Positions 1,173 to 28,824 of a stretch of DNA of 32,116 nucleotides are shown piece after piece (the stretch's first letter is position 1; the number at the start of each line of letters is the position of its first letter). Location: positions 1 through 32,116 of the IMG/VR virus record IMGVR_UViG_3300047557_000706; one strand, 5' to 3'. A program made the translations under genes and the position numbers. The stretch is from a virus. The notes under the pieces are model-generated. The model was given only the letters and a program-made list of their open reading frames with translations. It ran no database searches and had not been told where the DNA came from.

Positions 1173-2720
1173 ATGCCAGCGCAGCGCCAACGCTACAGCG
1201 CCGAGGAGGAGCAGCTACTCATGTCGCAGATGTGGTCGCCCCACGTCGCCGACGACCCCGAGACGTTCGTGATGTTCACGTTCCCCTGGGGGCAGAAGAA
1301 CACTCCCCTCGAACACTTCAGCGGACCGCGTACCTGGCAGCGGGAGGTGCTGCGCTCAATCACTCGTCACATCCGCACGAACCGCAGCCCCGGGGCCGTG
1401 CTCCAGGCGATGCGTAGCGCCATCGCATCGGGCCGGGGGATCGGGAAGAGCGCACTCGTGTCGTGGCTCATCTTGTGGATGCTGTCGACGCGGATCGGTT
1501 CTTCCGTGATCGTCAGTGCCAACAGCGAACCGCAGTTGAGGTCGGTCACCTGGGGCGAACTGACGAAGTGGGCCACGATGGCGATCAACGCGCACTGGTG
1601 GGAGCCGTCGGCGACCAAGTTGGTGCCTGCGGCGTGGCTCACTACCCTTGTCGAGCGGGATCTGAGCAAGGGCACGCGGTACTGGGGTGCCGAGGGGAAA
1701 CTGTGGAGCGAGGAGAACCCGGATGCGTATGCGGGTGTCCACAATCACGACGGCATGATGGTGATTTTCGACGAGGCCAGCGGCATCCCGGACACCATCT
1801 GGTCCGTGGCTGCGGGCTTCTTCACCGAGCCCATCGTTGACAGGTACTGGCTCGCGTTCAGCAACCCTCGCCGACCCAGCGGGTACTTCTACGAGTGCTT
1901 CACGTCGAGGCGGGGCTTCTGGCAGACGCGGCAGATCGACGCTCGCACGGTCGAGGGCACCGACAAGGCGGTGTACGACCAGATCATCGCGGAGCACGGT
2001 GAGGACAGCCGGGAGGCGCGCATCGAGGTGTATGGTCAGTTCCCGAGCACCGGGGACGACCAGTTCATCGACCTGCAGCGGGTCGAGGAGGCGATGAAGC
2101 GCGAGGCTGTGCCCGACCCCAGTGCGCCCGTCGTCATCGGCGTGGACCCGGCGCGCAGCGGGGCGGACAGCACGGTGATCGCGGTGCGGCAGGGGCGGAC
2201 GATCCTGACGCTGCGGCGGTACAAGGGCGAGGACACCATGACCGTCGTCGGGCACGTCATTCGCGCCATCGAGGAGTTCCGCCCGACGTTGACGGTGGTG
2301 GACGAGGGTGGCCTGGGCGCCGGGGTGCTTGACAGGCTCAAGGAGCAGCGGTACAAGGTGCGCGGGGTCAACTTCGGATGGAAGTCGAGCAGGCCGGCGA
2401 TGTACGGCAACAAGCGTGCTGAAATCTGGGGTGCGCTCAAGGAGTGGCTGTCCACAGCGTCGATCCCCAACGACAAGCACCTGCGCGACGACCTCACGGG
2501 GCCACGGGTCAAGCCAAACAGCGCCGGGGCCATCTTCCTGGAGTCGAAGAAGGAGATGAAAGCCCGAGGACTCGCCTCTCCCGACGCTGCCGATGCCATC
2601 GCCGTCACCTTCGCGTTCCCCATCGGCACCGACGACCCGGTGCTCAACCAGCGAGGCGCATCGCACTCGCGTATTGTGGTTCCAACGGTAAACTACTGGA
2701 ACGCGACACAGAGAGCATGA
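1173..2720 (+). CDS. terminase large subunit (packaging ATPase/nuclease)
   Basis: A 515-residue large terminase, the motor that pumps DNA into the prohead and cuts it. The ATPase half shows a Walker A variant SGRGIGKS at 86-93 and Walker B MVIFDE ending in D200-E201. The RNase H-like nuclease half shows GVDPARSGAD at 323-332 (D325 as first metal ligand), VVDEGG at 375-380 and SPDAADA at 469-475 with D471/D474. Length is close to P22 gp2 (499). It starts one base after the previous stop (TGACATG) and the portal gene follows with the same spacing, so translation is probably coupled. The TerL type plus P22-like portal suggests headful packaging, which is inference. Confidence 0.95.
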   Translation: MPAQRQRYSAEEEQLLMSQMWSPHVADDPETFVMFTFPWGQKNTPLEHFSGPRTWQREVLRSITRHIRTNRSPGAVLQAMRSAIASGRGIGKSALVSWLILWMLSTRIGSSVIVSANSEPQLRSVTWGELTKWATMAINAHWWEPSATKLVPAAWLTTLVERDLSKGTRYWGAEGKLWSEENPDAYAGVHNHDGMMVIFDEASGIPDTIWSVAAGFFTEPIVDRYWLAFSNPRRPSGYFYECFTSRRGFWQTRQIDARTVEGTDKAVYDQIIAEHGEDSREARIEVYGQFPSTGDDQFIDLQRVEEAMKREAVPDPSAPVVIGVDPARSGADSTVIAVRQGRTILTLRRYKGEDTMTVVGHVIRAIEEFRPTLTVVDEGGLGAGVLDRLKEQRYKVRGVNFGWKSSRPAMYGNKRAEIWGALKEWLSTASIPNDKHLRDDLTGPRVKPNSAGAIFLESKKEMKARGLASPDAADAIAVTFAFPIGTDDPVLNQRGASHSRIVVPTVNYWNATQRA

Positions 2721-2721
2721 C

Positions 2722-4746
2722 ATGGCACGCCCCTCGAACGAACAGCGCATGAACGACATCCACCAGGAGGCCATGGCGGAGTTCGACAAGATCCAGACTG
2801 CGCTGGGCGACGAGCGTCTGCAGTGTCTGCAGGACCGCCGGTTCTACTCCATCGCGGGTGCGCAGTGGGAAGGCCCACTGTTCCAGCAGTACGAGAACAA
2901 GCCTCGACTGGAGGTCAACAAGATCGCGCTGGCCGTGCAGCGGATCTTCAGCGAGTACCGGAACAACCGCATCACCGTCAACTTCATCTCGAAGGACGGG
3001 TCGAAGAACCGGAACCTCGCGGACATCTGCGACAAGCTCTACCGCGCCGACGAGCAGGACTCGTGCGCCGAGGAGGCGTATGACAACGCCTTCGAGGAGG
3101 GCGTGGCCGGCGGGTTCGGGGCGTGGCGTCTGCGGGCCGAGTACGAGGACGAGGAAGACCCGGACAACGAGTACCAGCGTATCAGGATCGAGCCGATCTT
3201 CGACGCTGACGCCTCGGTGTTCTTCGACCTCAACGCCAAGCGGCAGGACAAGTCGGACGCCAGGCACTGCTTCGTGCTGACGTCCATGACCCGTTCTTCC
3301 TACATGCGGGAGTGGAACGACGACCCGGCGACGTGGCCGAAAATCGTCCATCAGAGCGAGTTCGACTGGCAGACGCCCGACGTGGTGTACATCGCCGAGT
3401 TCTACCGGGTCGAGAACGTGCGCGAGACGCTGCACATCTTCGAGGCCATCGACGGCACCGAGGAGAAGTACCTCGAAAGCGAACTGGACGACGAGACTCG
3501 TGCGACGCTGGATGCCGTGGGCACCATCGAGGTGAGGCAGCGCAAGATCACGCGCAAGCGGGTCCACAAGTACATCATGTCCGGTGGCCGGGTGCTGGAG
3601 GACGTGGGTTTCCTGGCTGGGAAGTACATCCCCATCGTGCCGTTCTACGGCAAGCGGTGGTTCATCGACAACGTGGAGCGGTGTTCCGGTCACGTCCGCA
3701 CGGCGAAGGATGCCCAGCGGCTGAAGAATATGCAGCTCTCCAAGCTCGCAGAGATCAGCGCGCTGTCGAGCATCGAGAAGCCGATCATGACCCCGGAGCA
3801 GGTGGCGGGGCACCAGGTGATGTGGTCTGAGGACAACATCAAGAACTACCCGTATCTGCTGATCAACCCCGTCACGGGGCCGGACGGGAACACGCAGGTC
3901 GGTGGGCCGGTGGCCTACACGAAGTCGGCATCGGTGCCCCCGGCGCTGGCGGGCCTGCTACAGATCACTGAGCAGGACATCCGTGACCTGCTGGGTAACC
4001 AGGAGCAGGGCGACAAGATCGTCAGCAACATCTCGGGCAAGGCGCTGGAGACCGTCCAGCAGCGGCTCGATATGCAGAGTTACATCTACCTGTCGAACAT
4101 GGCGAAGGCCATTCGGCGGTGCGGTGAAATCTGGCTGTCAATGGCGAAGGAACTCTACATCGAGCCCAAGCGTAAGATGAAGGGCCTGGGCCTGCAGAAC
4201 ACCGTCGAGAGCATCGAACTCATGAAGCCGATGATCGACGAGCAGGGCGAGTTGCGCTACGAAGGCGACCTGAGCACTGCAGACTTTGACGTCAGCGTGG
4301 ATGTTGGCCCGTCGTTCCGTTCGCAGCGCGAAGCCATCGTCCAGTCGCTCACGAACCTCGCCGCGGTGACGCAAGACCCGCAGACGCAGGCCGTGCTCCA
4401 AGCCATGATCATCATGAACATGGAAGGCGAGGGTCTGTCCGACGCGCGGGAGTTCTTCCGCAAGAAGCTCGTAGACATGGGTGTCGTCAAGCCGACTGAT
4501 GAGGACATCAAGGCGGCCGAGGCGGCAGCGGCCAACGCGCAGCCTGATCCGAACGCTGTCTTCGTCCAAGCTGCTGCCGAGAAGGCGATGGCCGAGGCCG
4601 AGAAGGCCCGCGCCGATGCTGCCAAAACGGTCGCCGAAACCGAATTGACTCGGGTGAAAACGATGGAGACCATCGAACGCCTGCAACTCGACGCCGATCA
4701 ACAAGTGATTGATGTTGTGCAGAACCGACAATCTGTGCAACAATGA
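2722..4746 (+). CDS. portal protein, P22-like
   Basis: A 674-residue P22-type portal protein, which forms the dodecameric ring at the packaging vertex that docks the terminase and later the tail factors. The acidic N-terminal third and the long middle domain match the family, including a stretch near QSYIYLSNMAKAIRRCGEIW. From about residue 590 the protein becomes an Ala/Glu/Lys-rich helical tail (AEKAMAEAEKARADAAKT) to the end. In P22 (725 residues) the C-terminal part forms a coiled-coil barrel inside the head, and this tail probably does the same. The gene lies one base after terL. Later tail genes related to gp4 and gp10 support a P22-like neck. Confidence 0.92.
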   Translation: MARPSNEQRMNDIHQEAMAEFDKIQTALGDERLQCLQDRRFYSIAGAQWEGPLFQQYENKPRLEVNKIALAVQRIFSEYRNNRITVNFISKDGSKNRNLADICDKLYRADEQDSCAEEAYDNAFEEGVAGGFGAWRLRAEYEDEEDPDNEYQRIRIEPIFDADASVFFDLNAKRQDKSDARHCFVLTSMTRSSYMREWNDDPATWPKIVHQSEFDWQTPDVVYIAEFYRVENVRETLHIFEAIDGTEEKYLESELDDETRATLDAVGTIEVRQRKITRKRVHKYIMSGGRVLEDVGFLAGKYIPIVPFYGKRWFIDNVERCSGHVRTAKDAQRLKNMQLSKLAEISALSSIEKPIMTPEQVAGHQVMWSEDNIKNYPYLLINPVTGPDGNTQVGGPVAYTKSASVPPALAGLLQITEQDIRDLLGNQEQGDKIVSNISGKALETVQQRLDMQSYIYLSNMAKAIRRCGEIWLSMAKELYIEPKRKMKGLGLQNTVESIELMKPMIDEQGELRYEGDLSTADFDVSVDVGPSFRSQREAIVQSLTNLAAVTQDPQTQAVLQAMIIMNMEGEGLSDAREFFRKKLVDMGVVKPTDEDIKAAEAAAANAQPDPNAVFVQAAAEKAMAEAEKARADAAKTVAETELTRVKTMETIERLQLDADQQVIDVVQNRQSVQQ

Positions 4747-8767: not shown

Positions 8768-11514
8768 TGCCGACCATTAATCAACTACCACTGCGCTCGC
8801 CGGTCAGTCTAGGCGATCAAATCCCTATCTACTCGCCTAACAACGGCGATGCGCGGCGCACTCCGGTTTCAGCGGTTGTTGATCTGGTTGTCAACGGTCT
8901 TGATCTGCCGAATACGGCTGTTCTGTTGACGGGTGATCAGACAGTCGGTGGGACCAAGACGTTCTCCAACGCGATTGTCGGGAGCATCACTGGAAACGCC
9001 GGGACCGTCACGAACGGTGTCTATACCACCGGTAACCAGACAATCGGCGGAACGAAGACCTTCTCGTCCGCGATTGTCGGGGACATCACTGGAAACGCCG
9101 GGACCGTCACGAACGGCGTCTATACCACCGGCAACCAGACTATTGGTGGGACGAAGACGTTCTCCAGCACAATCGTCGGGGACATCAGCGGGAATGCTGG
9201 CAGCGTCACCAATGGTGTGTACACCACCGGCAACCAGACAATCGGTGGCACCAAGACCTTCTCGTCCGCGATTGTCGGGGATATTACTGGCAACGCTGCT
9301 ACCGCAACGACCGCGACAACCGCGACAACCGCAAGCAGCGTCACGAACGGTGTCTACACGGTCGGTGATCAGACAATCGGTGGGACCAAGACGTTCTCCG
9401 TTAACCCCATCCTGTCGGCTGGTACTGTTAACGCCATCTTGACCCTTGACGGCAGCAAGCAGATCAGCGCGGTTTCGGGGCTCACTTGGAATAGTGTTAC
9501 CTCAAACCTATCTCTCAATGGTATTACCGTTGGTCGCGGTGGCGGTGATAATACGAATGCCGTACTCGGTTGGCAAGCTCTACCCACTACAAGCGCGGCA
9601 GATTACAATGTAGCCATTGGTTTTCAGGCTATGTTTAGTGCCAATGCTAGTGCTGAAAACAATACAGCTATTGGATCAGAGGCGTTACGCGGTAATACAT
9701 CGGGACAAGCGAACGTTGGGGTAGGTGTTAATGCACTAGAAAGTAACCAAACCGGTGATCAAAATGTGGCAGTAGGCGCTAGTGCATTGCAAGCCAACAC
9801 CGTTACAGGTAATGTTGCGGTTGGCGCTAATGCTTTGACCAAAAATACTACCGGCACGTTCAATACAGCGATCGGTACTGCGGCATTGCAAGACCCGATA
9901 ACCGGTAGTAACAACACAGCAATCGGTGATAGAGCACTAGAACAATTTGGAGGCGCTAGTTCGTCAAATACTGCGGTTGGATGCAACGCGCTACGGGGAT
10001 CGTTCGTTTTAGGATCAAACGCATCTAATAATACCGCAGTAGGTCACAATGCCGGTAGGTTTATTACCACTGGCGGCTTCAATACTATCCTCGGCTCTTT
10101 CGACGGCAACCAGAACTCTCTGGATATCCGCACCACCAGCAACAACATCGTCCTGTCTGACGGTGTTGGCAACCCCCGCTGCTACTACGACGGCCCCAAC
10201 AACGCCTGGATTTGGCGCACGGGTGCGTCGGAGCGGTTGCGGCTTGATTCGTCGGGCAACGTTGCGTTCTCCGCCGGCACCGCCGCCGCCCCCGCACTGA
10301 CCACGACCGGCGACACAGATACGGGGGTGTTTTTCCCTGCCGCGAACACGTGGTCGGTGGCGACAGGTGCGTTTGAGCGCATGCGGATCAGCAGTGCTGG
10401 GAATGTGGGAATTGGGACGACGAGTCCGAATTTCCCGTTGCACGTTGCGGCCGCAGGCAATAATCGCTTGGTCGTGGAATCGACGACAAGCGGCGCGGCA
10501 TTGATAGGCCTATACGCTCCGACAGGTGCGCTGGCAGCATTTAACCAAATTCAGTCGATAGTCGGAGCCACAGAACACTGGGCAATTGGCGGTAACGGGT
10601 GGGAAAACACGCTTACGTTTAGGACCGCCGGCAGCGAGCGCATGCGGATCGCGAGCGGCGGAAATGTTGGTATCGGAACCACGAACCCCCAGGCCACGCT
10701 GCATGTTGCCGGGACTATTCTGTCTGCAAGTCCCTTCGGTAATCTGGCAACTCTGCAAGCAGTTGGCGGTACAGGCTTCAGGTGGACGCTGAATAACGAC
10801 GGCACATATCGCCTACAGCGCACCACTGACGGGTTTGCATCAGTCGCTGCGACTCCGATGCTGTTTGACGCCTCGGGCAACGTCGGTATTGGCATGACAC
10901 CGGGCACGAAGCTCGATGTCCAGGGTGATATCACCGCTCGCGGCGCAAGCATCTCCTCGACCGCGTACATCAACATGGGTGCTGCGTACACAGCCGCGTA
11001 CCTTGAATGGGTTCCAGGATCGAGTCAGCTAACGATCATGAACTCCCAAGCTGGCCCGCTGCGGTTTGCCACCAACAATGGCGAGCGCATGCGGATCACG
11101 AGCGGTGGTAGGGTCGGTATTGGGACGACGGACCCGGGATACGCCCTCACCGTCGCAAACGGCGATATTGGCGTAAAGCGCTCCGCAACCAATGACGGCG
11201 CTATTTTCTTCGGCTCAAACACCGACAACTACATCTATGGCGGCAACGCCAGCAACATCCTTACGCTTGCGACCAACAACTCCGAGCGCATGCGGATCAC
11301 AAGCGGCGGTGATGTTGGTATTGGGACGAACAACCCTGCTGTCAAACTCGAAGTCGCCGGACAAATCCGCACCGAAGCCCCGACAGGCGGCACTGCTGCC
11401 AACTGGCGGCTCGGCACCGTTCACACGGTCAGCCCAACGTCGCCCAACCGCACCATCGAAGTCGATATTGGCGGAACGATCTACTACCTGCACGCCAAGA
11501 CCACCAACAACTGA
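8767..11514 (+). CDS. large repeat tail fibre with YadA-like head domain
   Basis: A 915-residue fibre built from modules. Residues 1-45 (MPTINQLPLR, GDQIPIYSPNNGD) form a short domain shared with the protein at 12037, probably the virion anchor. Residues 55-198 are four repeats of TGNQTIGGTKTFSSAIVGDI type. Residues 280-450 carry about ten NTAIG/NVAVG-type repeats like the left-handed beta-roll heads of trimeric autotransporters. From 489 on, SERMRI-S-GNVGIGT-P motifs recur at about 537, 625, 773 and 840. Such fibres commonly end in an S74 self-cleaving chaperone, but this one ends in a short beta segment (IGGTIYYLHAKTTNN) without it. Bases at about 9480-10080 are A/T-richer than the rest, suggesting module transfer. 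It probably binds a host surface receptor. Confidence 0.85.
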   Translation: MPTINQLPLRSPVSLGDQIPIYSPNNGDARRTPVSAVVDLVVNGLDLPNTAVLLTGDQTVGGTKTFSNAIVGSITGNAGTVTNGVYTTGNQTIGGTKTFSSAIVGDITGNAGTVTNGVYTTGNQTIGGTKTFSSTIVGDISGNAGSVTNGVYTTGNQTIGGTKTFSSAIVGDITGNAATATTATTATTASSVTNGVYTVGDQTIGGTKTFSVNPILSAGTVNAILTLDGSKQISAVSGLTWNSVTSNLSLNGITVGRGGGDNTNAVLGWQALPTTSAADYNVAIGFQAMFSANASAENNTAIGSEALRGNTSGQANVGVGVNALESNQTGDQNVAVGASALQANTVTGNVAVGANALTKNTTGTFNTAIGTAALQDPITGSNNTAIGDRALEQFGGASSSNTAVGCNALRGSFVLGSNASNNTAVGHNAGRFITTGGFNTILGSFDGNQNSLDIRTTSNNIVLSDGVGNPRCYYDGPNNAWIWRTGASERLRLDSSGNVAFSAGTAAAPALTTTGDTDTGVFFPAANTWSVATGAFERMRISSAGNVGIGTTSPNFPLHVAAAGNNRLVVESTTSGAALIGLYAPTGALAAFNQIQSIVGATEHWAIGGNGWENTLTFRTAGSERMRIASGGNVGIGTTNPQATLHVAGTILSASPFGNLATLQAVGGTGFRWTLNNDGTYRLQRTTDGFASVAATPMLFDASGNVGIGMTPGTKLDVQGDITARGASISSTAYINMGAAYTAAYLEWVPGSSQLTIMNSQAGPLRFATNNGERMRITSGGRVGIGTTDPGYALTVANGDIGVKRSATNDGAIFFGSNTDNYIYGGNASNILTLATNNSERMRITSGGDVGIGTNNPAVKLEVAGQIRTEAPTGGTAANWRLGTVHTVSPTSPNRTIEVDIGGTIYYLHAKTTNN
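8929..9396 (+). repeat. 99-bp coding repeats in the fibre
   Basis: Units start at 8929, 9028, 9127 and 9226, each encoding a 33-residue block beginning TG(D/N)QT(V/I)GGTKTFS. The fourth unit is extended by 12 residues through a short GCGACAACC tandem repeat (about 9304-9336, encoding Thr/Ala). A partial fifth copy is at 9361-9396. Copy number could change by recombination and alter fibre length. Confidence 0.9.
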
Positions 11515-23691: not shown

Positions 23692-23753
23692 GCCAGAGCC
23701 GCGAACGCTGCCACCAGCGCCACGATGGCGACGGCGCAGATCAGCGTCTGCAT
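23688..23753 (-). CDS. 21-residue single-span membrane peptide
   Basis: A very short reading frame, MQTLICAVAIVALVAAFAALA, that is nearly all hydrophobic and would span a membrane once. Its ATG overlaps the stop of the zinc-ribbon gene upstream (TGATG), the same coupling used across this genome, which is the main reason to believe it. It ends at the end of the leftward operon and its stop overlaps the endolysin stop. It may be a small lysis or membrane-modulating peptide, or a chance frame. It has no ribosome binding site of its own. Confidence 0.4.
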   Translation of the reverse strand: MQTLICAVAIVALVAAFAALA

Positions 23754-23959
23754 CACTTGTGCAAACGCGAAATCAGCAAAGCGGTCTTCTTCGTCAGTGG
23801 CACCGAGTTCGGATGCTGCCTCGGCCGCTTCGCTGTAACCACCACTTCCTTGGTCGTGAATCGGTGCATGTTGGCGCACTGGTATCTCCTTCGCATGTAG
23901 TCAGACTGTTTCCGTGTTTCGAGGACTTGCGTCCACGTTCCGCACTCGGGGCACTGCAT
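23753..23959 (-). CDS. zinc-ribbon protein (NrdR zinc-ribbon-like)
   Basis: A 68-residue protein starting MQCPECGTWTQVLETRKQSD, followed by a basic stretch and YQCANMHRFTTKEVV. The C-x2-C pair, the later Cys and the His with 'RFTT-E' match the zinc-ribbon at the start of NrdR-type regulators, and similar stand-alone versions occur in phages. It may bind nucleic acid. The C-terminal third is basic without a fold I recognise. It is near the distal end of the leftward operon and overlaps the 21-residue frame by one base. Confidence 0.75.
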   Translation of the reverse strand: MQCPECGTWTQVLETRKQSDYMRRRYQCANMHRFTTKEVVVTAKRPRQHPNSVPLTKKTALLISRLHK

Positions 23960-23982
23960 GTTGGTCTATTTCGCGTTCGGCT

Positions 23983-24348
23983 TCACAACCCCAGCAGCCG
24001 GCGCTCGGCGGGCGTCAGCTTTGCCAGTGCGGCTTCGCGCTCGGCGTCTGTCTTGGTCTGCGCCAGTTCGCGCTCGCAGCGCGCCTTGTCAGCGGCTTGG
24101 TGGTCGCGCCACCAAATCTGCATCTCCAGGCTGTACTGCGTCACGTCGAGGCTTTGCAGCGCGGCGCACAGCTCGCGCACCATATGGTCGCCGGTAGCGC
24201 GGTCGGCCTTGCAGTACACGCGAGGGTGGTAACCATCCCACCAGCCGCGTTCCGCCTTCTGGCCAGCCAATTCGTCCAGCAGGCAAGCCACCCGCGAAAT
24301 CTCTCGTTCGTAGCCGCTGGCGGCCATGTGGTCACTGTTGCAAGGCAT
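23983..24348 (-). CDS. accessory phage protein of unknown function
   Basis: A 121-residue protein beginning PCNSDHMAASGYEREISRVA with a helical body (LEMQIWWRDHQAADKARCER) and ending LTPAERRLLGL. I know this family pattern (MPC-SDH/Y start, WWxxHQxAD motif) from phages, without a function. I chose ATG 24348 because GGAGA lies nine bases upstream; the in-frame GTG at 24381 has none. The start lies about 40 bases from an attC-like element. Confidence 0.75.
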   Translation of the reverse strand: MPCNSDHMAASGYEREISRVACLLDELAGQKAERGWWDGYHPRVYCKADRATGDHMVRELCAALQSLDVTQYSLEMQIWWRDHQAADKARCERELAQTKTDAEREAALAKLTPAERRLLGL

Positions 24349-24388
24349 CTTCAGTTCTCCAAGTGGTTTGGCTTCGTTCACCAGTGAA

Positions 24389-24447
24389 GCCGAACTGTCG
24401 GTTCAAGCGGACGCCGTGCGGGCGGCCCGTTTAACTCCGCGTTAGGC
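24389..24447 (+). other. attC-like (59-base element) recombination site
   Basis: Exactly 59 bases, flanked by GCCGAAC (24389-24395) and GTTAGGC (24441-24447), which pair in six of seven positions. Inside are two unpaired 5-base spacers (24396-24400, 24436-24440), then GTTCAAGCGG (24401-24410) pairing with CCGTTTAAC (24427-24435) with one unpaired extra C and a G-T wobble, and a variable centre. This is the R-box, unpaired spacer, L-box-with-extrahelical-base layout of integron attC sites, and GTTAGGC fits the GTTRRRY crossover box. The R'' box has one mismatch from RYYYAAC. The stop codon TAA of the neighbouring leftward gene lies within GTTAGGC read from the other strand. Polarity of the unpaired base suggests the rightward orientation. 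Confidence 0.6.
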
Positions 24448-24741
24448 CGCTGGCGGCAGCAGTGCGCGGATACGGCGCACGGCGTCAGCCTTGGCCTTGA
24501 ACCACTCGTCTTGGTAGCTGTCGTCGGGTTGCGCGGCTTGCGCGGCGGCTTGCAGCCCGATTTCGCGCCCCACTTCAACGCCGAGCGCAAACGCGGTCAG
24601 GTCGCGCTCAGTCGGCACAACGCCCGGCAGCTTCTTGCACCATGCGTCTGTCAGTTCGGCATTGGTCAGCCCACCTTGCACTGGCGGCCTAACAGGTCCG
24701 TCAAGCGGACCCGCCACGGCGTGTTGCGTCGTCTCGTTCAT
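24442..24741 (-). CDS. accessory protein next to an attC-like site
   Basis: A 99-residue protein with no known function. After a variable start (MNETTQHAVAGPLDGPVRPP) comes a helical domain (AELTDAWCKKLPGVVPTERD; FALGVEVGREIGLQAAAQAA) and a basic C-terminus ending RALLPPAA. The stop lies within the GTTAGGC box of the attC-like element and a half-site lies inside its first 20 codons, so its first residues appear to be encoded by recombination-site sequence. ATG 24741 overlaps the preceding gene's stop and has AGGAG five bases upstream, which supports translation from there. Its gene looks like a cassette; this is inference. Confidence 0.7.
   Translation of the reverse strand: MNETTQHAVAGPLDGPVRPPVQGGLTNAELTDAWCKKLPGVVPTERDLTAFALGVEVGREIGLQAAAQAAQPDDSYQDEWFKAKADAVRRIRALLPPAA
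24687..24711. other. attC half-site-like sequence
   Basis: GCCTAAC at 24687-24693 (perfect RYYYAAC box) is followed by AGGTCCGTCAAGCGGACC, which shares CAAGCGGAC with the attC-like element 250 bases to the left. GGTCCG and CGGACC form a perfect 6-bp hairpin here. The partner GTTRRRY box is poor (GTTGCGT at 24723-24729), so it could be a decayed site or a coincidence. Confidence 0.35.
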
Positions 24742-25109
24742 CGTTGCTCCTGTTGCGCCCGCGTGGCGGGCCGGTTACCAATGGCGATTGCACGCTGCGT
24801 CGCCTTCACTCGATCCCGCATCCGCTGACTGCGCTGTGTCGGCGTCAGTCCCGGCGGTCGCTTGACGTCCTTGCCCTCACCCCATGCGTAGGCTGCGATT
24901 GTCCAGCGACCGATGCTGTCCTGTTCCCAGGCCGCGATACGCACGAGCCTGCGCCGGTACAGTGTCGCAACGAACTTGCGACAGGCGTTGTACGCCAGTC
25001 CCGACTCCTCGCTCAGACCGCGCACCGTTGTCGACCCTGCGATAAGGACCGAGATGGCCTCCGCGTAGCACGACACACTGGCGAGGTGGCGTCGTAGTGA
25101 TCCGCTCAT
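24738..25109 (-). CDS. helix-turn-helix DNA-binding protein
   Basis: A 123-residue protein whose region of about residues 15-65 (AISVLIAGSTTVRGLSEESG, then LAYNACRKFVATLYRRRLVR) reads as a winged-helix domain, with VRIAAWEQDSIGRW forming the wing. The basic C-terminus (PTQRSQRMRDRVKATQRA) could add DNA contact. Similar phage proteins are known as HTH proteins of unknown target. ATG 25109 overlaps the SNF2 stop (TGATG) and its own stop overlaps the next start (ATGA), so it is translated as part of the leftward operon. A role as a middle or late regulator is possible. Confidence 0.75.
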   Translation of the reverse strand: MSGSLRRHLASVSCYAEAISVLIAGSTTVRGLSEESGLAYNACRKFVATLYRRRLVRIAAWEQDSIGRWTIAAYAWGEGKDVKRPPGLTPTQRSQRMRDRVKATQRAIAIGNRPATRAQQEQR

Positions 25110-26515
25110 CAAACCCCCTTCTGTTGTCGGTACTTCTTCACGGCGCTGCGCAGTGCGTTCTGCGTCGTCGCCTTCTCGTCGAGCGCGATGGCCTGCGCCT
25201 GGTCAAGCGTATCGCGGCACATGATCCGGTGGCAAACCACCGGGGCACCCTGACCCTGCCGGCGCACCCGGGCGTTCATCTGGTCGTACAGATCGAGTGA
25301 CCAGTTGAGCCCAAACCACACCACCGTGCGTCCACGCTTCTGCAGGCCGTCGATGCCATGTCCCATGCTGGCCGGATGACCAATCATGAGTTGACAGTCC
25401 CCCTTCATCCACCTGTCCATTGCCGCTGTGAGTGACCCCTCGGTCTTGCACTCGGTCAGGTTGATCGGACGCAGATCCTTGAACCGCGCCATGATCCTCT
25501 CAGCATCGCTCCGGTAGGCATAGGAGCACAAGACGGGAGAACCCTGAGCCTCGTCGATGATCTCCTCCAGCGCGTCGAGCTTGAGGTCGTGGATCGGCTC
25601 CCACAGGGGCATCCCCGCCACCGGGTACACGGCACCGTTGCTGAACTGCAACGCCTTGTTGGTCAACGAGCCTTGGTTGAACACCTCGACCGTGGTGCCG
25701 CTGTCGAGCTGCGTGAAGAACTCCTTCTCCAACTGCTCATACTTCGCTCGGACCTCGCCCTCCATCTCGACCTCGATGTTGTTGACGATGAGGTCGGGCA
25801 GGGGGTTGTAGTCCTCGGCTGACATCTCCAGCGTGATGTCGCCGATGAGGTTCTTGATCGTGTCCTCGGCGTCGTCGTAAAGCACCTCCTTGTACGTGCC
25901 CACCTTGCGATAGAAGCGCGTCTTGAAGGCGGTCTTGGACGTGCCCAGGCGCACCCCTCGGTCCACCACGAGGAACTGGCCGTGGAGATCCTTGTAGCCG
26001 TTGCTGGCCGGGGTGCCGGTAAGGCCCGTCGTCCAGGTAAACTGATCGAGCACCTTGCGCACCGCCTTCACGCGATCCGTGGCGCTGTTCTTCATCTTGC
26101 TGATCTCGTCCCACACCACCCCGTTGAACGGCAGCGGCTTGTCCTTGGCGACGTAGTACGTCTGCAGGGTCTCAGCGAGCCAGCGCAGGTTCTCGTAGTT
26201 GATGAGGTAGATGTCAGCGGGGCGCATCAGTGCCCGGGTGCGCTGGTCCTTGGTGCCCGTGACCATGCTGAAGCGCAAGTGCTTGGTGTGCTCCCACTTC
26301 GCAGCCTCCTGTCGCCACACGAGTCGGATGACGCGGATCGGGGCGACGATGACTACGCTGCGCAGGTAGCCGGTGGACAACAGGTGGACTATCGAAGTCA
26401 GGGTGACGATAGTCTTTCCCAATCCCATGTCTTTCCAAAGCATTGACTGCGGATGAGTACATTGAAAGTTGATAGCTTTCTTCTGGTAGTCGTGGAGCAG
26501 GTTGGGGGTTAGCAT
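25109..26515 (-). CDS. SNF2-family helicase
   Basis: A 468-residue superfamily 2 ATPase of the SNF2 type found in phage replication modules. Helicase motifs: DMGLGKT (29-35, Walker A), VVWDEIS with D136-E137 (motif II), LTGTPASN (165-172, motif III). The C-terminal lobe has GHPASMGHGIDGLQ and ARVRRQGQ (motif VI with arginine finger). It is compact for SNF2 and lacks extra domains. It could remodel protein-DNA complexes or move along DNA during replication or recombination. It overlaps VRR-NUC by seven bases, a pairing common in phages. Confidence 0.92.
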   Translation of the reverse strand: MLTPNLLHDYQKKAINFQCTHPQSMLWKDMGLGKTIVTLTSIVHLLSTGYLRSVVIVAPIRVIRLVWRQEAAKWEHTKHLRFSMVTGTKDQRTRALMRPADIYLINYENLRWLAETLQTYYVAKDKPLPFNGVVWDEISKMKNSATDRVKAVRKVLDQFTWTTGLTGTPASNGYKDLHGQFLVVDRGVRLGTSKTAFKTRFYRKVGTYKEVLYDDAEDTIKNLIGDITLEMSAEDYNPLPDLIVNNIEVEMEGEVRAKYEQLEKEFFTQLDSGTTVEVFNQGSLTNKALQFSNGAVYPVAGMPLWEPIHDLKLDALEEIIDEAQGSPVLCSYAYRSDAERIMARFKDLRPINLTECKTEGSLTAAMDRWMKGDCQLMIGHPASMGHGIDGLQKRGRTVVWFGLNWSLDLYDQMNARVRRQGQGAPVVCHRIMCRDTLDQAQAIALDEKATTQNALRSAVKKYRQQKGV

Positions 26516-26793
26516 AGCCCCACCATCTCGTCGATCATCGCCACCCCCGCCTCCACGTTGTCAACGATGAACACGTTGACCTTGTGCCCCCGCAGCCGGT
26601 TGTGCTCGCGCTGCTGCGGGATCGTGGGCTTCTGCCCCTGTCGCTTGAACTCGCAGAAAAACATGCGCCCGTTGGGCAGCACGAACAGGCGGTCAGGCAC
26701 CGCAGCGCGCGCTGGCGACGTGAACTTGTAGACCAGCAGGCCGCGCTGCTTGGCGTAGTCGCACACCTTGGTTTCAATCTGCTTTTCGAGCAT
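26509..26793 (-). CDS. VRR-NUC domain nuclease
   Basis: A 94-residue stand-alone nuclease domain of the PD-(D/E)XK fold. E3/E7 lie in the first helix, P33-D34 in ARAAVPDRLFVL, E48-x-K50 in FFCEFKRQG, and Q60-Q61 in TIPQQREHN, which together are the full VRR-NUC active-site set. Such phage proteins are structure-specific nucleases, for example on Holliday-like or flap DNA. It overlaps DUF3310 upstream by 20 bases and the SNF2 gene downstream by seven, so all three are translated together. Confidence 0.92.
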   Translation of the reverse strand: MLEKQIETKVCDYAKQRGLLVYKFTSPARAAVPDRLFVLPNGRMFFCEFKRQGQKPTIPQQREHNRLRGHKVNVFIVDNVEAGVAMIDEMVGLC

Positions 26794-27004
26794 TGCGCGT
26801 CTCCAGTTCGATCAACAATTCGATGTAGTGCTTGGCCTTTTCCAAGTCGGCAATACCGTTTTTCTTGCGCCATCGACTGATGTACTTGATGACGTTACCC
26901 TCCATGTACCCGATGTTGTTGACATGGATGTATTCGACTGGCTGAATCGGCAGATCCTTGTAGTGATCGCCAGCAACCTGTTTGCTCAAGCTAGACTCAG
27001 ACAT
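26774..27004 (-). CDS. DUF3310 protein
   Basis: A 76-residue protein containing the compact DUF3310 pattern: DHYKDLPIQPVEYIHVNNIG followed by YMEGNVIKYISRWRKKNGIA and DLEKAKHYIELLIEL. The same domain occurs in T7 gp1.7, a nucleotide kinase, but usually stands alone with unknown activity. I chose ATG 27004, with GGAGA five bases upstream, over an earlier in-frame start that lies inside the polymerase gene. It overlaps the polymerase by 19 bases and VRR-NUC by 20. Confidence 0.9.
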   Translation of the reverse strand: MSESSLSKQVAGDHYKDLPIQPVEYIHVNNIGYMEGNVIKYISRWRKKNGIADLEKAKHYIELLIELETRNARKAD

Positions 27005-28824
27005 AGCTTCTCCACTTCCTCGACGTAGTAACCAAAGTCCACCGGCAGCACGGCATCCTCGATGCGGTTGCACACTTGGACGTTCCATCCAGACTCAACC
27101 CCGATGCGCCGCCACTCGGTCTTACCCTTGAGGGGCGGCATCACCTTCGTCAGCGGCCTACCACCCCGGGCGATGTAGTACCTGCAGGTGTTCTGCACCT
27201 GCTCCTCGCCCCACAGCAGCCTGCTCGACCGGGGCACCTTGACGCGCAGCATGAAGTCCATCTTGTCGGGCCAGTTCTCCACGGTCTCGCGGATCGGTGC
27301 GCCTTCGAGTAGCACCTTCTCGGCCACCTTCGGGATCACCAGTCCACCCGCGTTCTGGTGCCAGCCAACCTTCCACTCGTAGGCACCCTTGCGCTTGACC
27401 GACCCGTCCTCGTACTCACCGATGTAGTTGTTGACGTCGCGCAGGAACATACGCCGGTAGCGCACTTGTTCGAGGTTGAGCTTGGTCAGCCGCATCCACC
27501 AAGCGCACGCCTCGTCCACCGCTGCCACCTGGCTGCGCGGCACGCGCACCGTGACACCATCGGTGTTGACCTGCACGATGCTCAACCCCGGCACCTTCAG
27601 CATGTTCTCGGCCAGCAGGCACAGCAGAAGCTGCCCGTTGAGCGTGATCGACATGGTGAACAGCGGGTCATAGAAGACGCTGAATCGGTTGTTGCTGTCG
27701 CCGTAGACCCCGTTCAGCGCGAGCTTGAGCATGGCGCTCTCAGCCGACTTCTTGGGGTACTGCTTGCGCTGCTCGAACAGGTTGCCGTAGATGCTCGTGA
27801 ACTCGCGCCCCAGGTGCGCCGGGGCGAACCCGTTCGTGATGGCGAGGTTCGGGTAGTAGCTGGTGACGTCTAGGTCGATGATGACGTGCTCGTCGTCGGA
27901 CTCGACCACCACGTTCTCAAGCGAGCCATGGATGCCACCCAGGCCGAAGACGAACGTGAACCCGTCCACCGTCGCCGTGAGGTCGGTGAAGACCCCCTTG
28001 GTCTCGGTGATCGTCTGCGCCTTGAGCCAGTCCAGCACCCGCTGGAACTCGGACCGCTCGAACGTGATCCACGGCAGGATGGCGTCGCGCAGCGCGATGC
28101 TCGGGCGCGGGGTCTGTCTGGGCTTGCGACCATCGGGGCCGAAGTCGTAGCACTGGACACCGGCCTCCTCCAGCTTCATCACGAAGAAGTCCTTGCCGAT
28201 CTTCGTGTCGTTGTGGTTCAGGAAGTCGCGCCCGTACTTGACCGTCAGTTCCTCACGGAACCGGATCATGTCGAGCGTGTGGTGGTAGAACCGCTTCGTC
28301 TCGGCGACGTCGTGGCGGTTGTACCGCTTGAGCACTTCGACCTGCTCCCGGGTCAGTACCGTCCCCACCGGGAACGGCAAATCCTCGATGCTGTCGGAGC
28401 GCATGTTGAACTCCAGCGCCTTGAGGCTGGTGCTGCGGGCCTTGTTGTCGAAGTGGTGGATCTTGAACAGGTCGATCTGCTCGACCACCCGGTCGCTCGG
28501 ACGTACCTGGTGCAGCCAGCGGTCGTCACCCTCATCGGTCTGCGAGTCGATGATGGCCTGCGCCTTGGCGTACAGGATGCCCGCGTTGCACGAGCCCATC
28601 ATCAGCAGTTGGTGCAGCACCGGGTAGTCGAACCCGATGCTGTTGAACCCCACCATGCGGGCCTTTCGGTCAGCGAGCCAGCGCACGAACTCGACGATCT
28701 CTCGGGAGTCGTTGCGCCAGTCGCTGATCTCGAACATCCAGCAGATCGGCGCAATGGCGTGCTCGACGGACATTGTGAAGACGTTCGGATACGTCTCGAC
28801 GTCCCAGATGAAGTCATTGGTCAT
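26986..28824 (-). CDS. family B DNA polymerase
   Basis: A 612-residue DNA polymerase. Proofreading exonuclease motifs: D8-x-E10 in WDVETYPN, FNSIGFD with D66, and YNRHD (Y168, D172). Polymerase motifs: A at D319-V-T-S-Y-Y-P325, B at K367-L-A-L-N371-G-V-Y-G375, and C at V-N420-T-D422-G. Motif C has N in place of the usual first D of DTD, while the second (catalytic) D is kept. GGIHGS just before motif A matches the family too. It is shorter than T4-like enzymes and has no extra protein-priming insertion that I can place. It presumably copies the phage genome. Its ATG at 28824 has only a weak ribosome binding site after a strong hairpin. Confidence 0.92.
   Translation of the reverse strand: MTNDFIWDVETYPNVFTMSVEHAIAPICWMFEISDWRNDSREIVEFVRWLADRKARMVGFNSIGFDYPVLHQLLMMGSCNAGILYAKAQAIIDSQTDEGDDRWLHQVRPSDRVVEQIDLFKIHHFDNKARSTSLKALEFNMRSDSIEDLPFPVGTVLTREQVEVLKRYNRHDVAETKRFYHHTLDMIRFREELTVKYGRDFLNHNDTKIGKDFFVMKLEEAGVQCYDFGPDGRKPRQTPRPSIALRDAILPWITFERSEFQRVLDWLKAQTITETKGVFTDLTATVDGFTFVFGLGGIHGSLENVVVESDDEHVIIDLDVTSYYPNLAITNGFAPAHLGREFTSIYGNLFEQRKQYPKKSAESAMLKLALNGVYGDSNNRFSVFYDPLFTMSITLNGQLLLCLLAENMLKVPGLSIVQVNTDGVTVRVPRSQVAAVDEACAWWMRLTKLNLEQVRYRRMFLRDVNNYIGEYEDGSVKRKGAYEWKVGWHQNAGGLVIPKVAEKVLLEGAPIRETVENWPDKMDFMLRVKVPRSSRLLWGEEQVQNTCRYYIARGGRPLTKVMPPLKGKTEWRRIGVESGWNVQVCNRIEDAVLPVDFGYYVEEVEKLCLSLA

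Follow-up and report, generated by a model that had tools for sequence, protein, structure and literature searches.

The DNA analyzed here (the window) is the whole of an IMG/VR virus record of 32,116 bases, in which the terminase, portal and tail genes lie on the + strand and the helicase, DNA polymerase and exonuclease are encoded on the - strand. A cassette array of two cassettes, C1 and C2, occupies positions 23976-24779, between the helicase operon and a gene for a zinc-ribbon-like protein (Table 1). The helicase is of the SNF2 type, according to the annotation of a relative in phage DSL-LC05. Elsewhere in the window, a second variable block (26793-26986) precedes the DNA polymerase gene, with a length of ~0.2 kb in the window versus ~1.4-1.5 kb in the related sequences L303, L304 and L305, and no attC match was reported there by the covariance model described below. 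Repeat-like matches at a 99-base offset were also seen in the 915-aa tail fibre gene (8929-9400).

Table 1. Features of the cassette array and its surroundings in the window, together with full-length integron integrases (IntI) on other viral contigs.
Feature	Position	Strand	Remarks
68-aa gene	23753..23959	-	Backbone on the far side of the array; zinc-ribbon-like by its cysteines (judged by eye)
GTTCGGC box	23975..23981	+	Left end of the array; attI-like target junction G/TT
Cassette C1	23976..24441	+	From TTCGGC through attC1 to the G of R'; its first bases, GTTCGGC, are exactly complementary to R'' GCCGAAC (24389) of the same cassette
C1 gene, 132 aa as listed	23983..24381	-	phrog_11759, function unknown; opposite to attC
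attC1, complete	24389..24447	+	R'' 24389-24395, L'' from 24401, L' to 24435, R' 24441-24447
Cassette C2	24442..24779	+	From TTAGGC to the truncated attC2; the start GTTAGGC complements R'' GCCTAAC at 24687
C2 gene, 99 aa	24442..24741	-	Function unknown; starts inside attC2; stop TAA is the TTA of the GTTAGGC box
attC2, truncated	24687..24779	+	Retains R'' and L'' as well as a long loop that holds a ribosome-binding site and a start codon
Backbone gene, 124 aa as listed	24738..25112	-	Adjoins the array, upstream of the C2 gene; last codons inside attC2; stop overlaps the C2 gene start (ATGA)
Helicase	25109..26515	-	phrog_62, E 5e-129; operon reads into the array
IntI of G066	L325:6713-7693		Contig with terminase, portal, head, tape-measure and tail-fibre genes and a second, ordinary integrase
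IntI of G045	L328:16878-17918		Contig with tape measure and a second integrase
IntI of G052	L326:1-1035		Contig with tape measure and tail fibre

The complete site, attC1, spans 59 bp and consists of R'' GCCGAAC, a 5-nt spacer, L'' GTTCAAGCGG, L' CCCGTTTAAC, another 5-nt spacer and R' GTTAGGC, where L'' has one extra base relative to L'. A sequence-only reading of this DNA had described a full attC layout with a GTTAGGC crossover box at this place, and the boxes are indeed as described. The covariance search that it had proposed, here carried out with our own model from bacterial loci and not with that of IntegronFinder, yielded a significant match of 37.8 bits (E 4.2e-8) on the + strand when the whole 32-kb window was scanned with filters off. 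The same model gave 15.4 bits on the - strand, and one other match in the window, at 10.6 bits, is ascribed to chance. Given these scores on the two strands, the standard orientation of attC1 is + and the recombining bottom strand is thus the - strand, on which the leftward genes are also encoded. By the measure of a model trained on bacterial integrons only, 24389-24447 is a genuine attC. The strict RYYYAAC...GTTRRRY pattern misses attC1 because its R'' reads GCCGAAC, and the only match to that pattern in the window is a palindromic place at 27580. An Rfam scan of the window gave no match at gathering score; a mir-995 match over the attC2 hairpin (E 0.03, far under its gathering score) was dropped.

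Folding of the bottom strand, also proposed earlier, gave a divided answer. As single-stranded DNA, attC1 has a minimum free energy of -10.6 kcal/mol (z +0.45) and an R-box pairing probability of 0.22, as compared to -17.2 to -22.1 across five sister-phage and six bacterial attCs, and its minimum-energy structure leaves the R boxes unpaired. The five sister-phage sites fold as well as the six bacterial ones. Single-strand folding by itself did not pick out attC1 within the window.

The model rests on 80 bacterial integron-integrase loci gathered through an IntI alignment. A simple attC finder returned 55 matches in these loci and none in one shuffle each of the first 20 loci; in 54 of the 55, the L'' side held the larger number of extra bases. 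The covariance model itself was trained on 32 attCs, all from bacterial integron loci, and its hand-written structure has 83.5% paired cells versus 67.4% in shuffles. At E <= 5e-4, 98 of 98 model matches in the bacterial loci were on the expected strand. In 73 phage loci without a known array (549 kb; 70 obtained through the helicase, two through the 99-aa protein, plus phage DSL-LC05), a single match was found, with 14.8 bits and E 0.97. When referring to these scores it should be noted that the model does not cover every attC, as the published phage CALIN TJE1 scored only 18 bits, and the integrons of Vibrio and Shewanella phages reached no more than 17.5 and 22.7 bits, respectively. No model match was found in the first 50,000 of the 131,903 bases of H101, nor any attC match in the parts scanned of two sequences that matched part of one cassette, Variovorax phage V45v66 and MW202489. 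The latter has a gene of 60 codons with stop (L311:17229-17408) annotated as the class D beta-lactamase OXA-58, a name that, judged by length, is most likely wrong.

The left box of the array, GTTCGGC, is one base off GTTRRRY, a variant that occurs in bacterial loci too. The likely start of the C1 gene is the ATG at 24348 (121 aa, with GGAG upstream; judged by eye), and its protein, with no Pfam match, is 50% identical to a protein of the Synechococcus phage (cyanophage) S-CRM01. For the C2 gene there were no Pfam, PHROG or NCBIfam matches, and a search of its protein (AVAGPLDGPVRPPV) against a phage database matched nothing; the residues GPLDGPVRP of this protein come from the L''-R'' half of attC2. 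The right edge of C2 lies at 24779/24780, where the backbone resumes in relatives. Site attC2 ends after L' (CCGGTTACC at 24771-24779), with the spacer and the R' box missing, and it gave no covariance-model match up to E 1; in stem and loop it can be aligned with an attC that scores 55.5 bits in another phage (L213:6808-6922). The half-site that had been noticed in the first codons of the 99-aa gene is thus attC sequence, as supposed, but since R'' at 24687 complements the start box of C2, it should be viewed as the R''-L'' half of a truncated second attC. Likewise, attC1 does border the leftward 99-aa gene, whose stop lies inside the box, and its actual position is between two cassettes.

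In an integron cassette, the fit of R'' to the start of the cassette can be compared with its fit to the R' of the same attC, and we made this comparison for 163 viral and 58 bacterial cassettes. R'' fitted the cassette start better in 89 of 106 informative viral cassettes, with 10 worse and 7 ties (p 5.5e-17), and in 33 of 36 informative cassettes of bacterial integrons, with 1 worse; both window cassettes also fit. Such a match of R'' to the start of its own cassette reads as the trace that integration of circular cassettes at the G/TT box would leave.

Relatives with a 96-99% identical helicase match the window up to the array edge and again beyond it, and among them five different arrays are found, each starting at a GTT(A/C)GGC box. 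The comparison of related phages that the sequence-only reading had proposed also came out in its favour, as the sequences differ between the box at 23975 and 24779. The relatives L002 and L003 (the latter also represented by L009) match the window throughout the block. In L008 and L013 the match ends at 24684, inside attC2, whereas only short, weaker stretches over attC sequence are seen in L011 and L012; on the left side, the alignment breaks near 23981-24004. The left junction, GGGCACTGCATGTTGG(T/C)CTATTT(C/G)GC-GTT(C/A)GGC, is common to all seven array-bearing sequences examined, with five different sequences following the box. The right junction reads GTTRGGC-CCCRC-AATGGCG in three arrays and is shortened to CCGGTTACC-AATGGCG in the window, its sister, L303 and L013. 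Array and spacer together take up 320 to 860 bases, where L015, L017 and L176 have 13 bases instead; L018 resembles L017, bringing the empty sites to four. It should be considered that the empty-site phages L015, L017 and L018 stand further from the window (helicase 88% identical). One full and one truncated attC are found in the window, and two each in L304 and L305.

The sister record G001 (38,029 bases; 97.5-99.6% identical to the window over the five longest matching stretches) carries the same block and, in addition, a second array, located in a stretch missing from the window, with four attCs of 62.4, 52.7, 50.8 and 47.8 bits. This second array looks intact. The window copy, in which attC1 folds poorly and attC2 has no R' box, may be frozen and no longer mobile. 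A promoter-like TTGCAT-N17-TACATT was seen by eye in G001 (L301:3757-3856), just past the end of the second array as the genes are read, ahead of the next gene. A 318-bp cassette of the second array (78-aa gene; L233:9522-9840) is 99.7% identical, over 318 of 318 bases, to one in the first array of L011 (L304), with no similarity of the flanks on either side; one and the same cassette thus occupies two different loci in two sister phages. A 515-bp cassette of L011 (L304; 140-aa gene) is 97.9% identical over 515 of 515 bases in L184, where the left flank is partly similar (78.8% over 236 bases) and the right flank is unrelated. The window and L008 (window 24687-24779 versus L303 12678-12800) have the terminal truncated attC half in common and differ in the gene body beyond R'', a break at R'' that is not explained by simple whole-cassette exchange.

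The last ~36 residues of the 99-aa protein (about EDSYQDEWFKAKADAVRRI) recur at 78% identity in two other sequences, L004:3001-3108 and L005:3001-3108, in a protein with a different N-terminal part. No attC was found in these two sequences by the model, and a loose finder gave only a place in a coding region, far from the shared stretch; part of the 99-aa gene thus also exists outside cassettes. The likeness is best taken as a shared domain and not as the same gene. The sequence-only reading had named, as evidence against itself, relatives carrying the same gene with no breakpoint at the box; what L004 and L005 share is confined to the C-terminal ~36 residues.

To place these arrays among viruses, metagenomic viral contigs were scanned with a DNA pattern for the L''-R'' half of attC, which gave at least 120 stretches, with 80 loci among the matches listed. 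As the survey was seeded by an attC-like pattern, it is not a census, is silent on frequency and may favour some site types, and this should be considered for the viral counts drawn from it. Among the 80 loci listed, model matches (E <= 5e-4) numbered one or more in 67, two or more in 51 and five or more in 22; in the first viral set, 150 of 152 matches entered the alignment used for counts. The polarity of a cassette was defined by its better-scoring gene under a simple open-reading-frame score, with the bacterial set as control. The 186 distinct viral cassettes among the loci listed comprised 121 with the gene against attC, 32 with the gene along attC and 33 ambiguous ones, as opposed to 5, 51 and 6, respectively, among 62 bacterial cassettes (Fisher p 6.9e-21, ambiguous cassettes left out). 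A re-run with other margins yielded similar numbers (viral: 123 reverse, 23 forward; bacterial: 6 reverse, 50 forward). By locus majority, 38 of the listed viral loci were reverse, 4 forward and 7 tied, and the bacterial loci were 18 forward, 1 reverse and 1 tied. On contigs with a phrog_2 terminase, 34 cassettes were reverse, 11 forward and 13 ambiguous. The new aspect of these arrays is this polarity: viral cassette genes run against attC, the reverse of bacterial integrons. The sequence-only reading had foreseen neither this polarity, nor that the entire block forms an array, nor the recurrence of such arrays in many viral contigs. The median cassette is also shorter, with 398 bases in the viral versus 619 in the bacterial set.

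Starts inside attC were counted for 34 of the reverse viral genes at first and for 38 of 123 in the re-run; in 78 of the 123 the start lies at R'' or up to 60 bases after it in the reading direction, and in 7 further away. Stops fall in the R' box in 51 of 123, with 50 of these being a TAA within its TTA, and otherwise inside attC beyond the R' box (34), up to 30 bases before it (27) or further away (11). Both a start inside attC and a stop in the TTA of the R' box are found in 20 genes. The 38 attC-started genes read L''-R'' in two frames only (21 and 17 genes), the third being unused because GTTAGGC holds a TAG in it, and recurring N-termini result (such as GPVERGVRP, GQVERPVRP or LGLGLSEGLGP). 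The 99-aa protein of the window is of this attC-started kind and has its stop in the TTA of the GTTAGGC box.

A tyrosine recombinase (PF00589) was not found in the window, nor in 23 related IMG/VR records, for which completeness is not stated; four of the 23 belong to the array clade, namely G001 (38 kb), G002 (31 kb) and the fragments G003 and G004 (~10 kb). There were also no matches to an integron-integrase model in the window, and its makeup differs from that of a complete integron, with no intI in cis and both genes running toward the fixed junction, against attC. As no tyrosine recombinase was found in the window or in these relatives, IntI would be supplied in trans: the array clade is integrase-less as far as seen, and we infer that IntI must act in this way. 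The missing integrase further suggests that the window phage is virulent.

For other array-bearing viruses, 66 viral loci were named for recombinase and terminase searches and 50 of them, from 49 records, were searched, revealing a tyrosine recombinase in 10 and a terminase (phrog_2 alone) in 16 of the 49 records. At least three of the ten recombinase records (G066, G045 and G052) have full-length integron integrases, 53-54% identical to IntI1 and with TIGR02249 scores of 390-428 bits versus a cut-off of 265; as IntI was sought in the locus stretches of the ten contigs, three is a minimum. Partial IntI-like matches were found besides in L198 and L253. In G066 and G045, IntI adjoins the ordinary integrase, with attC sites on its other side. 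Phages that encode IntI, like these three, are one possible source of the enzyme.

With regard to cargo, 121 of the 123 re-run reverse genes (>=60 aa) were scanned for families. Few match Pfam, with ten families in all. Five of the matches are to DNA methyltransferases (N6_N4 methylase with 3 members, C5 methylase and D12 methylase), and RNA ligase, MazG and Lar restriction alleviation are represented too. Through PHROGs, an HNH endonuclease and a Mom-like modification protein were found in addition. Against a phage database, nothing matched the second array of G001, and for two other viral arrays the matches were short and partial at best, with several falling on HNH endonucleases. We also looked for a host through the cassette genes in 399 genomes of one bacterial order, that of a Rhodoferax genome, which from the name we take to be Burkholderiales, and no host was found in this set: the C1 gene was present in 0 of 399 (a search without a positive control), and the 140-aa cassette gene had only distant relatives, in 12 of 399, the best being 39% identical. 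With C1 not found and the 140-aa gene only distantly represented in these genomes, a phage-side pool is favoured, and of the two alternatives that the sequence-only reading had offered, exchange of small accessory genes by the phage through such sites agrees better with the data than arrival from a bacterial integron. The attC type resembles that of Burkholderiales integrons, which hints at such a host.

Clusters of two or more neighbouring attC sites without an integrase (CALINs) have been published for phages, with 17 listed by Qi et al. 2023 (PMC9892861), where five of six phage CALIN attCs tested were recombined with attI1 by IntI1 in E. coli. The window, with its one full and one truncated attC, is like these in its small cassettes and in that no intI was found. 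One of them, MW202573, gave four model matches (49.0, 41.5, 39.5 and 23.4 bits), all four on the - strand, with its annotated genes at 1860-3675 on the + strand and hence opposite to attC, as in the arrays described here. The part of PMC9892861 consulted contains no comparison of near-identical phages for swapping and no description of genes against attC or starting inside it, and our literature search, which covered few subscription papers and no preprints, revealed neither antisense phage cassette arrays nor start codons in attC loops. An attC cluster in a phage is thus known already, and the antisense array is new. Bacterial chromosomal integrons (IntI loci L109-L170, mostly Burkholderiales) share the attC type and the rule relating R'' to the cassette start, but differ in having intI in cis, forward genes (51/62, with 5 reverse) and longer cassettes. 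Complete integrons, in which intI, attC and cassettes are all in the phage, are described in the same source for temperate phages (Vibrio, Shewanella and P1), and G066, G045 and G052 look like further cases. The Vibrio phage integron is given there as a captured piece of a host integron (PMC9892861); unlike it, the window clade has no intI found and its C1 gene occurs in 0 of 399 genomes of the one order.

Taken together, we read 23976-24779, with a probability of roughly 0.87, as a short array of integron-type cassettes lacking an integrase of its own (a CALIN), placed at a fixed site in the phage replication operon and exchanged via IntI in trans. We regard the site, its boundaries, the swapping, the shared cassettes and the polarity as demonstrated at the level of sequence comparison. 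In the mechanism that we propose, IntI from a host chromosomal integron or from a co-resident IntI-encoding phage would cut and join cassette circles through the folded - strand, with insertion either into resident attCs or into the box that neighbours the zinc-ribbon-like gene. Recombination of the bottom strand is reported to put cassettes in the correct orientation to the integron promoter Pc (PMC8876359). As the cassette genes here are opposite to attC, they would instead be read by the phage operon rather than from Pc, and selection would retain those inserts whose gene runs along the operon and hence against attC. The attC hairpin would serve as a leader that gives many genes their ribosome site and start, and many cassettes would be self-contained translation units, with ribosome site and start in or just after attC and the stop in the TTA of the crossover box. 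Two further points weigh against a CALIN exchanged in this way and should be kept in mind: 10 of the 106 informative viral cassettes fit their own R' better, and the four array-clade records in which a recombinase was sought include just two long ones, G001 and G002.

Homologous mosaicism is common in phages, and the cassettes may have been caught once from a bacterial chromosomal integron and then kept as passive cargo, with homologous recombination generating the variation and the attCs being mere shared patches. The decayed look of attC1 and attC2 in the window and the break between the window and L008 at R'' rather than R' would agree with this, but we consider it unlikely, as five array types have the GTT(A/C)GGC left box in common, R'' matches the cassette start, the same cassette lies at two loci with no similarity of the flanks, and two cassette genes are absent or only distant in the 399 genomes of one bacterial order. 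Still less probable is that an IntI gene of the phage itself or of its close kin lies in genome regions beyond those that the records cover; the system would then be a complete phage integron instead of a CALIN. A full-length IntI is indeed encoded on at least three other viral contigs with arrays (G066, G045 and G052), whereas no tyrosine recombinase was found in the window or the 23 related records, including the 38-kb G001, with the reservation that the completeness of these records is not stated.

The hairpins might also be RNA or DNA regulatory elements of the phage operon, leaders or terminators, that came to resemble attC by convergence. In favour of this, the hairpin would be part of the mRNA, given that coding and bottom strand are the same, the start lies inside attC in 38 of 123 reverse viral genes, and attC sites are said to influence how downstream genes are translated (PMC8876359). 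However, the spacers and the unpaired extra base fit the integron model, and the swapping of whole units at the crossover box is unexpected for a plain regulatory hairpin, so that convergence seems very improbable; the hairpins may have a regulatory role on top of recombination.

Beyond the integrase-less array itself, we lean slightly toward a wider interpretation, in which phages keep their own pool of antisense cassettes, attC acts as both recombination site and leader, and accessory genes, those for anti-restriction among them, are reshuffled by integrase-less phages through a borrowed integrase. In such a pool, and with odds again a little better than even, the attC loop would hold the ribosome site and start, L''-R'' would encode a recurring N-terminal peptide (such as GPVERxVRP) and the TTA would provide the stop. 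Any cassette entering a phage operon would then arrive ready for translation, and the integrase would come from the host or from IntI-encoding temperate phages.

Phage genomes are mosaic, and the precise exchange of small genes is mostly ascribed to homologous or illegitimate recombination. In the arrays described here, a named site-specific system appears to exchange small accessory genes between close phages, with junctions that can be read. The reversed polarity predicts expression by the phage operon, with the coding strand being the recombining strand, and, given the methyltransferase, Lar and Mom-like cargo, the arrays may be an exchange market for counter-defence genes.
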